Assembly: GCA_012517205.1 (NCBI GenBank)
Contig: JAAYVL010000153.1
Coordinates: 24,667 to 88,666, forward strand
DNA: 64,000 bases
DNA from: Verrucomicrobiota bacterium
GTDB taxonomy: Bacteria; Verrucomicrobiota; Verrucomicrobiia; Limisphaerales; UBA8199
Direction: 5' to 3'
This document shows positions 2,094 through 51,300 of this stretch, piece by piece (position 1 is the first letter of the stretch; the number at the start of each line of letters is the position of its first letter). Both the position numbers and the translations under genes were made by a program. The notes under the pieces were generated by a model. That model was given only the letters and a program-made list of their open reading frames with translations, was not told the origin of the DNA and ran no database searches.

Positions 2094-2308
2094 TGTCCAA
2101 TTATTGGACACTTGCCTGCTTTCGGCCTCAATAGCCATTTCCAATGCCAGATTTCGCCTAACCTGCATAATTTCACGGACATCCATAGATACCAGCTGGC
2201 CGTGTACAAGGGGTGTACAAGGGGAGTACAACGGATGCTCAGCAGAGGAACAATGAAAAATCCGTTGTGCATCCGGTGAGCATCCCTTGTACACCCCTTG
2301 TACACGGC
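2094..2308. repeat. Composite intergenic repeat, copy 1 (palindrome plus long hairpin)
   Basis: In the leuD/2476 divergent gap there is a perfect 17-bp palindrome TGTCCAATTATTGGACA at 2094-2110. Exactly 88 nt further on is a perfect 25-bp inverted repeat (2199-2223 against 2284-2308) beginning GCCGTGTACAAGGGG and containing two tandem GTGTACAAGGG units per arm. Inner stem pieces GGATGCTC / GAGCATCC are also present, with an extra GAGTACAAC in the left arm. Similar elements occur at 29947-30151 and 42336-42816. The function is not known to me. Confidence 0.9.
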
Positions 2309-29946: not shown

Positions 29947-30151
29947 TGTCCAATTATTGGACACTAAGCTGTTTTCGCCCCTGCAAATCCTTCCCAAGGC
30001 CACTTTGAATTTAACCCGCGTAATTTCAGGCCCATAAATAGCCACCAACTAGCCGTGTACAAGGGGTGTACAAGGGATGCTCACCGGGAGAACAACAGAA
30101 AATCCGATGGGCATCCGGGGTGCATCCCTTGTACACCCCTTGTACACGGCT
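29947..30151. repeat. Composite intergenic repeat, copy 2 (palindrome plus long hairpin)
   Basis: The dapB/MFS divergent gap (29629-30369) holds no gene but repeats the architecture of copy 1. An identical 17-bp palindrome TGTCCAATTATTGGACA is at 29947-29963. Exactly 88 nt later there is a perfect ~29-30-bp inverted repeat, 30051-30080 against 30122-30151. The arm begins AGCCGTGTACAAGGGG and continues through GTACAAGGGATGC. Flanking sequence is also similar to copy 1, with a shared GTAATTTCA / ATAATTTCA stretch and a G-rich GGGGGCAGG run after the hairpin. Confidence 0.92.
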
Positions 30152-42234: not shown

Positions 42235-42335
42235 CGCAACCGCCCCTCGCAAGCCGGCCACGCAACCGGTGGGACATTGACAGCCAAAACCCAAGTGATA
42301 ATGGCTCCAGCAAGTCGCAATTATCGCAGCCGAAC

Positions 42336-42816
42336 TGTGCCAATTTGGCACACCGGCGCGCAGATAGCGCGACGGTTATCGTTGCCCAATCAGCCGCCAA
42401 AAACTTCGGGCATATAAAGCCACTCCGGAACCTCCGATCAGGCGAAGCAACTGCCCCGGCCACCAACCGCGTTCCATTTTAGCCAACTTCACTCCTTACA
42501 GGCTTTTCCCTGGCCAACCTCAAGCCGTGTACAAGGGGTGTACAACGGATGCTCATCGGATGTACAAAGGATTTTTCCTTGTAATCCCGGTGAGCATCCG
42601 TTGTACACCCCTTGTACACGGCCATATAGTCGGGTGAAAATAGGGTAAATTAGCGGAAATCAGAGGATTGGCTGATAAGACGTGGGGCAGGGGAGCGCCT
42701 GACTGGCTGAGGTGGATTGGGAGGGTATTTTGGATTTGAGGAAGCCTTCGGATGGGGTTTGCGCGTGAGGGTATGCAGGAATGGCCGCAGAGATGAGAGT
42801 GTGCCAAATTGGCACA
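42336..42816. repeat. Composite intergenic repeat, copy 3 (hairpin flanked by two palindromes)
   Basis: The pilC/brnT gap (42155-43039) contains the longest hairpin of the family: a perfect 32-bp inverted repeat, 42524-42555 against 42591-42622, with arms beginning GCCGTGTACAAGGGG and ending GGATGCTCA. Relative to copy 2, AAGGG/CCCTT in the arms is AACGG/CCGTT, a compensatory change. Variant 17-bp palindromes TGTGCCAATTTGGCACA (42336-42352) and TGTGCCAAATTGGCACA (42800-42816) lie 171 and 177 nt from the hairpin on either side. There is no coding sequence in this gap. Confidence 0.9.
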
Positions 42817-42963
42817 GCTTGGCTGGTGGATTGGAGGGTTGCCCAAGACAAGCAGTATCTGTGGGCCAGAGATCAGCTTCGGTTATCTGGGGGCAAGGAT
42901 CAATGAGCCGTGCTCCAAATTGCCTGGAAGCGCATGGTGGCGAAAAAAAAGCGAAAAAATCTT

Positions 42964-48385: not shown

Positions 48386-51300
48386 GAAGAGAATGCAGCA
48401 TGAAGGATGAAGAATGCAGATTGCCGGGTGTGGCGGCGACCCTTCCGCGCTCCGCGCTCCGCCTCAGGGCCGGTGACAAAGCCGGCGGCGCGCGGGCGTC
48501 CTCGCCCGCTTTGGGCTTGGGGGGGGCGAAAACCAGCCTTTTCGCGCGGAACTGCAGACGGTTTAAGCGGGCGGGGACGCCCGCGCGCCGGCACGATGGG
48601 GACTTCGCCACTGGCCCTGCTCTCCGAGCTCCGCGCTCCGAATGCGGAGTTGCCTTGGTCGTTACCCTGGTGTTGATCACCGTCATCACGTTCATGGCGG
48701 TCACCTTTTTGATCGTCAGCCGCAGCCAGCATGGCGCCGTCGCCACCACCACCGACCAGGCCATCGCGCGCCTGGCGGCCAATGCCGCCCGCGATCGGGC
48801 CATCGTCGAGGCCCTGTCCCGGATGATGGCCCAGACCAACGAATTCAGTTATGGGATGTTGGTGGCCACCAATTACTTCAATCCGCTGGGGTTCGACCCC
48901 GGGGCGGTGCCGCAGGCGTCTCCCAATCCGACCAATGTCAACTACGATTATACGATCACGGGCGCGCCGCTTACTCCGGAACAGCGGCTGCAGAATATCG
49001 CCAACCTGTTATACGCGCCCCGCCCGCCGGTCTTCATCACCAACCGCCTAAGCCAGGCGAATGAGTTTCGGTTCTATCTCGATCTGAACCGCAACGGACT
49101 TCATGATCCCAGCGGTTTGTTGCCGGAAATTAACCCGCTGGGCGGCTTCTACGATTTGAATGGTGATTGGGTTCCTTATGCCTGGCCGCCGCCGTCTGGC
49201 ATCGTGAGCAACTTCTGCATGGGTGACCCGGAATGGATTGGCCTGTTGCAGCGCCCCGAATATGCGCACTCCAGTTCGAACCTCTTTATCGCCCGTTATA
49301 CGTACCTGGTGGTGCCGGCGGGGCAGACGCTGGATATCAATACGATCCATAACGACGCCAAGCTGCGGGTCATGACCGCCCCCGGGGACGGCTTTCTCCG
49401 CAACCAGGGCGTGGGCACTTGGGAAATCAACTTGGCTGCGTTTCTGGCGGACCTCAATACCAACCTTTGGCCAACGACGCCGTTGAATTTCTACAGCTTT
49501 GCACCTTACGCTTATGATGTCAGCTTTCCACCGCTGGCCAATCAGGGAGCGGCATTCGATGACGCTTTCGGCCTGTTGCATTACCGATACGCCACCAATG
49601 TGGACAACCTGGCGAAAGTTCAGGATCTGTTCGGCAACCCCGGGGCGCTCGCGTTCCAGGCTGACTTTGCGGATGTTTACTCCGGCGGTCCGGTGATGGA
49701 CGGGCTTTGGTGGCCGCCGCCCTTCTTCGGTAACATCAACCAGCCCAAGATCAGCCGCGACCCGTGGTCGGGTGGGGATAATCCCAACCGCTACTTTACC
49801 ACGCAGGATTTGTTCGATTCGGCCAAAACCCGGCCCGGCTGGCTTTCCGCGGGGGTGCCGTCTTTTACCGACCGTCTCAAGATGGCGGGAACCAATGTGG
49901 ATTCCTACAACCGCTACACGTTCTACCGCCTGCTTTCCCAGCTCGGCACGGATTCGGCGCCCGAGCCGAGCGGCAAGATGAATCTTAATTACCGCAATGT
50001 GGATGAGCACGGCTATGTGGTGCCGAATATGGTCACCAACTTCATCCCCTGGACGCCGGAACAGTTCTTCACAAATGCTGCCGTGCGGTTGCTGGCGGAT
50101 GCCGGCTATGCGGTTGGTCATGGCCGCAGCACCTCAAACCTGCTGGTTCTGGTCACCAATTCCTTTGGCGGCCGTGGGATCGTGACGACCAATCTCAACA
50201 TTCCGATCTGGCCTACGAATTACTATACCCCCAGCGTGCATCGCCTTTTGCAGCTTGCTGCCAACCTTTACGATGCCACGACCGTCACGAATGAGGCGGG
50301 CACCACGGCGACCGGGATCAAGCTCTCGCTTCCCACCATATTCCGGCCGGTGTTCGCTGGCAACGCGGCCAGCGGGTACATTTCCGTGGTTGGTTATCGT
50401 GAAGTCACCAGTGCGGACACCGCCGACTTGGTTGACAATAGATATGATTTGGTGCGTGATCTGACCGATACCAACGATCTGCCACAGTTTGATCCCGCCC
50501 GGGATATGGCCTACAACGTTCCGCTGGTGATTGGGGCCAAAAAAGGCTTTCCCAACTTTAATGAGTTTGTCCTGCAAACCCAGATTCAGGTTACGCGCAA
50601 GCTGCAGTTCCACCGGCCCGGAGTTTCCACGACCGAACCCGTCAACGAGATTGACCAGATGTTTGTCGTAGGTATTACCAATACGCTGGGGATCGAGGCT
50701 TGGAACTCCTACGCGACCAACTTTCCCCGAGGCCTTACCATGGTGGTTTGGCCGGACATCGGTCTTTATCTCACCAATCGTGAGTCGGGCAAATGGCTCA
50801 ATGAGCCGCCGCTGTTGTCGCGGTATCGGCAGGGAACCCCCGCCGTGAAAACGAATTTCCCCGCGAACTCATGGCCGGGTTATGCTTCGGAATCGCCCAA
50901 GGCGTCTTTTCAAATTCCCCTGGCGTCCAACGTCGTTTTCTTGCCCAAGATGACGTATCGAAGAACGCCGACGGATGGTTTCGTGCCCTTGACCGGCGCG
51001 TTCGAACGCACGATTGGTTCCACCAACTTCTATATCCCCCAATGGAGCGTGAGAGTCAAAGCCCGGCTGCGGTTTGCGCTGGTGGATGACGGGACAGGGC
51101 GGATTGTGGATTATGTGAACCTTGCCGATGATAATTTCCAGGACCTGACGGAGGTTCTCACCCAGGGCGGAAATAATAGTGTGACCTACACGCCCGACGG
51201 CAGAAATGGCAGCATGTGGCTCACCAACCGCATGTATGGCCGGCCGGCAAACGATGTCACCACGGCGACCTTTGGCATTCAAAATCAAATTGAGGCCTGC

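Follow-up and report, generated by a model that had tools for sequence, protein, structure and literature searches.

The window (the whole 64,000-nt stretch of DNA analysed here) contains three copies of a hairpin, and the third lies at the centre of a symmetric unit (Table 1). Just right of copy 3, directly behind an uncharacterised 106-aa ORF, there is a CopG-antitoxin-like gene (Pfam PF12441; 43366-43653); the two genes are a possible toxin-antitoxin pair. A 26-bp inverted repeat at 48486-48590 (96% complementary, 53-nt loop) has no relation to the hairpin family. An Rfam scan of the window returned only a tRNA and left the hairpin unmatched, and identification as a known structured RNA was rejected on that basis.

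The first-pass annotation had placed a 32-bp hairpin between two palindromic 17-mers, TGTGCCAA(T/A)TTGGCACA (P2), at distances of 171 and 177 nt. Both 17-mers and both spacings were found exactly as claimed; the hairpin is actually a 99-bp near-perfect palindrome with arms of ~46 bp. Folded as single-stranded DNA, it gave -50.9 kcal/mol, compared to -12.0 ± 2.4 kcal/mol for shuffled sequences (z -16). No third match to P2 was found in the 64-kb window at ≤3 mismatches (0.23 expected from shuffles). The P2 palindromes occupy the hairpin-proximal portion of a 27-bp inverted repeat (42327-42353 and 42799-42825) with 25/27 identical positions (93% complementary). They had also been described as a variant palindrome. 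The difference in centre base between left and right is real, but it represents polarity, because P2 has a direction: both sites face outward from the hairpin and read GTGTGCCAAATTGGCACAG in that sense. Copies 1 and 2 possess the same hairpin as copy 3 but have palindrome P1 (TGTCCAATWATTGGACA) on one side.

Table 1. Positions of the hairpin copies and associated palindromes in the window
Feature	Position	Strand	Remark
Copy 1, P1 palindrome	2094..2110	-	90 nt from CGTG hairpin core
Copy 1, hairpin	2199..2308		one extra 11-nt unit
Copy 2, P1 palindrome	29947..29963	-	TGTCCAATTATTGGACA; 90 nt from CGTG hairpin core
Copy 2, hairpin	30052..30150		
Copy 3, whole unit including both inverted-repeat arms	42327..42825		27-bp arms
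Copy 3, left P2 palindrome	42336..42352	-	outward orientation on - strand, TGTGCCAAATTGGCACA
Copy 3, left arm	42353..42523		C-rich on + strand, 'AGC' type when read outward
Copy 3, 99-bp hairpin	42524..42622		11-nt phased units GTGTACAAGGG GTGTACAACGG ATGCTCATCGG ...
Copy 3, right arm	42623..42799		G-rich on + strand
Copy 3, right P2 palindrome	42800..42816	+	

A hairpin family with adjoining palindromes

The genome is a 3.6-Mb draft in 181 contigs and represents one metagenome-assembled species of an uncultured bacterium. Employing the half-hairpin CGTGTACAAGGGGTGTACAA as the query, we found 134 forward and 130 reverse matches genome-wide (≤2 mismatches) and none with the same sequence read backwards as a control. 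The total number of elements depends on the mismatch thresholds: paired half-sites give ~130, and the density of hairpins along nine contigs implies ~180. We read 72 elements in full; the core between their CGTG feet was 95 bp in 66 and 106 bp in 6, the longer core being the shorter one plus one 11-nt unit. The hairpin arm is composed of such units (GTGTACAAGGG GTGTACAAGGG ATGCTCACCGG ATGTACA..). Compensatory pairing in the outer stem (positions 3-7 and 10) exceeded that in shuffled sequences just modestly, so our case is not rested on it.

All 16 genomic P2 sites and all 36 P1 sites (TGTCCAATWATTGGACA, TGTCCAAT type) lie within ~250 nt of a hairpin of the family (in one case, a hairpin truncated where the contig ends), and the palindrome pattern read backwards had no match genome-wide. 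The association between palindromes and hairpins is above chance. The earlier view of copy 3 as a symmetric unit with palindromes belonging to the hairpin is upheld. Both palindromes show a fixed polarity away from the hairpin (AGTGTCCAATAATTGGACAGTT for P1, GTGTGCCAAATTGGCACAGTT for P2). P1 is located 40-226 nt from the hairpin, mostly at 90 and 105-107 nt, and P2 at 131-247 nt; these distances are clustered, not constant, and 11-nt helical phasing among them was unsupported by the Rayleigh test.

The palindromes had also been proposed as the ends of a mobile unit, of which copies 1 and 2 would be one-sided derivatives. Neither idea is supported, because the distance to the hairpin varies, some copies carry both palindromes on one side with P1 nearer the hairpin, and single-sided P1 is the commonest P1 layout; no element with P1 on both sides was seen among those examined. 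The other suggestion, that P1 and P2 are operators, is plausible, and they are best regarded as putative protein-binding sites associated with the hairpin.

The elements belong to two classes. Class A (41/72, including all three window copies) has flanks that become unique past ~110-160 nt and has no defined ends; class B (31/72) has long common flanks (~255 and 400 nt) with arms ending in the TIR-like motif TTWAGCCGNAACGATTCAG. Some elements are hybrids that combine a class A arm with a class B arm on the opposite side, as if arms had been swapped at the hairpin. The motif TTWAGCCGNAACGATTCAG has 28 matches genome-wide and no linked transposase gene. Contigs of this genome (G000) often end inside or a few hundred bases from a hairpin (e.g. 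C23, C42, C46, C53, C88, C150 and C173), as they would if repeats had broken the assembly; genuine ends or breaks are the alternative.

Spacing and GC skew

On nine contigs totalling 759 kb, with 38 hairpins including truncated ones, the mean gap between hairpins was 18.7 kb (29 gaps; sd 7.1, CV 0.38, minimum 9.0 kb, maximum 37.2 kb). In 20,000 uniform random placements, so low a CV or so high a minimum never arose. Based on gene calls from a simple codon-usage script, the hairpins lie between genes and show no bias towards gene ends (15 tandem, 10 divergent and 3 convergent gaps). Within 10 kb of hairpins, 236 genes pointed outward and 168 inward (shift-null P = 0.001).

The mean GC skew of 61 elements was -0.42 over the 50 bp preceding the hairpin and +0.45 over the 50 bp following it. 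Skew in these 50-bp flanks alone could belong to the element itself, but the flip extends past the element into ordinary genes, and cumulative GC-skew minima are found within 50 bp of most hairpins. With circularly shifted hairpin positions as the null, outward skew had z values of 24.7 (50-350 bp), 10.0 (350-1000 bp), 7.3 (1-2 kb), 4.5 (2-4 kb), 4.0 (4-6 kb) and 1.1 (6-9 kb). From one hairpin to the next, the skew declines from +0.075 to -0.064, as seen in 26/29 intervals.

Genes pointing outward and genes pointing inward both carry the flip. At 4-fold sites, the orientation-independent half-difference with increasing distance was 0.177 (0-1 kb), 0.124, 0.093 (2-3 kb), 0.117, 0.061 (4-6 kb), 0.034 and 0.003 (8-10 kb); this silent-site asymmetry is between G and C, almost without an A/T component. 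The flip was absent from 87 hairpin-free intergenic gaps ≥300 bp long. Gene direction was ruled out as the cause, because the skew is present whichever way genes point and plain gaps are flat. A KOPS- or Chi-like oriented motif was also rejected, no dominant oligomer being found beyond the base skew itself.

When the sequence was scanned blindly for abrupt C-to-G flips, the 13 highest peaks were hairpins, and a scan for the mirrored flip produced no comparable peaks. On five held-out contigs, mostly unused before, the top 9 flip peaks were again hairpins, and outward skew per 2 kb was 0.118, 0.069, 0.038, 0.044 and 0.006.

Interpretation and alternatives

To account for the palindrome-hairpin link, the even spacing and a skew flip that decays over 8-10 kb regardless of gene direction, we tentatively favour, with a probability of about 0.4 and judging from base composition only, a nucleoprotein station on the chromosome that sends out a strand-asymmetric process, likeliest DNA replication, in both directions. 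P1 and P2 would be the outer protein-binding sites of a station centred on the 97-108-bp hairpin, and ~130-180 stations would split the chromosome into ~19-kb intervals. The skew would be the trace of the process leaving the hairpin in both directions and fading by mid-interval. The candidate process is bidirectional DNA replication, by dispersed initiation or by regular fork restart, with termination points that would vary within the interval between two stations. It would be loaded by proteins bound to P1/P2 and to the 11-nt phased hairpin, which may be extruded as a cruciform. The mild tendency of genes to point outward is in line with it.

A skew flip from C-rich to G-rich normally occurs only where DNA copying starts, and a single origin is the assumed rule for bacterial chromosomes. 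For the few multi-origin exceptions, some cyanobacteria, there is to our knowledge no known origin sequence. At the hairpins, the GC skew does change sign from C-rich to G-rich, independently of gene direction. The stronger proposition, that copying of the chromosome starts in both directions at ~130-180 evenly spaced origins defined by sequence, each consisting of a hairpin and flanking initiator palindromes and together producing a saw-tooth GC skew, we regard as unlikely. Several points stand against an origin. The silent asymmetry, almost confined to G/C, does not resemble the effect of simple cytosine deamination on the lagging template; a similar skew would result from transcription directed outward or from selection that favours G on outward strands; a single, ordinary dnaA gene was found in the genome; and the 11-nt arrays of sister genera (see below) lack the flip. 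The near-zero A/T component, the one normal dnaA gene and the purely compositional nature of the evidence are the reasons for the low probability of both propositions.

Several cyanobacteria (Synechocystis, Nostoc) copy their chromosome from many origins (PMC7198777). Their GC skew is described as irregular, whereas here a shared sequence and a flip are found at each candidate site. Human N-shaped skew domains are bordered by putative replication origins and are usually read as bidirectional replication with variable termination (PMC3320577). As in the hairpin intervals, the skew steps up at putative origins and declines linearly from one to the next; however, the human domains are eukaryotic, of megabase scale and without a shared border sequence, whereas the hairpin intervals are ~19 kb long and have a shared sequence at their borders. 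Regularly spaced, sequence-defined flip sites would make dispersed bacterial replication, or some other skew-writing process, directly testable. Even if they served nucleoid organisation only, conserved sites spaced by ~19 kb with a saw-tooth skew match no system in the literature searched.

Such a role in nucleoid organisation is the best of the competing explanations, although we consider it rather unlikely. As nucleoid-organising or centromere-like sites, for which palindromic macrodomain sites are a comparison case, the hairpins would bind an array-binding protein on the phased units and on P1/P2 and so divide the chromosome into ~19-kb loops or topological domains, and the skew would be secondary to domain-wise supercoiling or transcription. 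The even spacing, the strict 97/108-bp length, the conserved palindromes at preferred distances and the tandem 11-nt arrays of sister genera agree with such sites, but the flip and the 8-10-kb decay of silent-site skew are not predicted by them alone, and the array units of the sister genus g9 vary from site to site. Compared on DNA alone, the parC centromere of plasmid R1 is similarly built of tandem 11-bp units, at least two of which are required by ParR (PMC9426499); parC is one plasmid site, whereas more than 100 hairpins are present on the chromosome here.

Doubtful as well, and below both of the foregoing proposals, is a family of non-autonomous mobile elements whose copies are spaced by insertion immunity. 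The high copy number, the long homologous flanks of class B with their TIR-like ends and the class A/class B hybrids would fit such a family, and descent from mobile elements is possible, especially for class B. Class A, with its unique outer flanks, nonetheless shows the strongest skew flip, and native genes kilobases away carry the same flip; the two Y1 transposase (Y1_Tnp) genes in the genome have no hairpin within 1.5 kb. REP/BIME elements (GTAG- or CGTC-tagged palindromic repeats with RAYT transposases), which occur in Verrucomicrobia also (PMC3733652), resemble the hairpins as high-copy intergenic palindromes, but they are 20-40 bp in size compared to 97-108 bp, and the hairpins differ further in their 11-nt phased units, even spacing and skew flip. 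No GTAG/CGTC tag was present at the palindrome foot in 72 aligned elements (95/106-bp core), and no RAYT gene was flanked by hairpins. Membership in REP/BIME was rejected on size, the missing tag and the lack of an adjacent RAYT.

Bidirectional Rho-type transcription terminators, in which a strong hairpin would be reached on each strand through a C-rich, G-poor stretch, are improbable. The entering strand is indeed C-rich and G-poor for 200 bp from either side, but the hairpins are not at gene ends, and with only 3 convergent gaps, versus 10 divergent and 15 tandem, a Rho-dependent bidirectional terminator was rejected by position; the silent-site skew out to 8 kb in both gene directions and the regular spacing would also be left unexplained. 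Bidirectional promoters, from which long transcripts would run outward with mutation or R-loop formation on the displaced strand, fit the G-rich outward strand near the hairpin and the slight excess of outward genes but are very improbable, since the skew crosses opposite-strand genes, so that kilobases of antisense transcript would be needed, and the aligned arms contain no conserved -10 element.

Related sequences in other genomes

Tandem arrays with an 11-nt period, including some ~97-nt hairpins, were found in two sister genera of the same family, g9 (G008 and G012) and g11 (G010). The 457 kb sampled from G012 contain 21 arrays of 11-nt units with many different unit sequences; for periods of 6-19 nt, 11 was the commonest, and 7 and 14 were present too. 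The units in G012 include TGTACGGATGG, TTACGATGGGG and CTAGTATTCCT, and neighbouring arrays are ~10 kb apart (L169-L173, L183-L191 and L203-L222). In G008, ~97-nt hairpins phased at 11 nt are composed of other units and have C-rich/G-rich flanks (L182:1373-1461; L180 near 2990). A sharp skew flip was not seen in the sister-genus samples. The 11-nt habit is therefore probably older than the present hairpin, and the flip is so far specific to the studied genome.

The plasmid collection and the viral contigs searched gave no match. An exact 20-mer search of 84,980 species genomes retrieved four short contigs in three metagenome bins, and the whole genomes of these bins contained only 1-2 sites; the four contigs are probably misbinned contigs of the studied species. 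In a contig that is probably misbinned into another genome (L107:1265-1400), a hairpin copy is split by an insert, the downstream part of which resembles an IstB-type IS gene.
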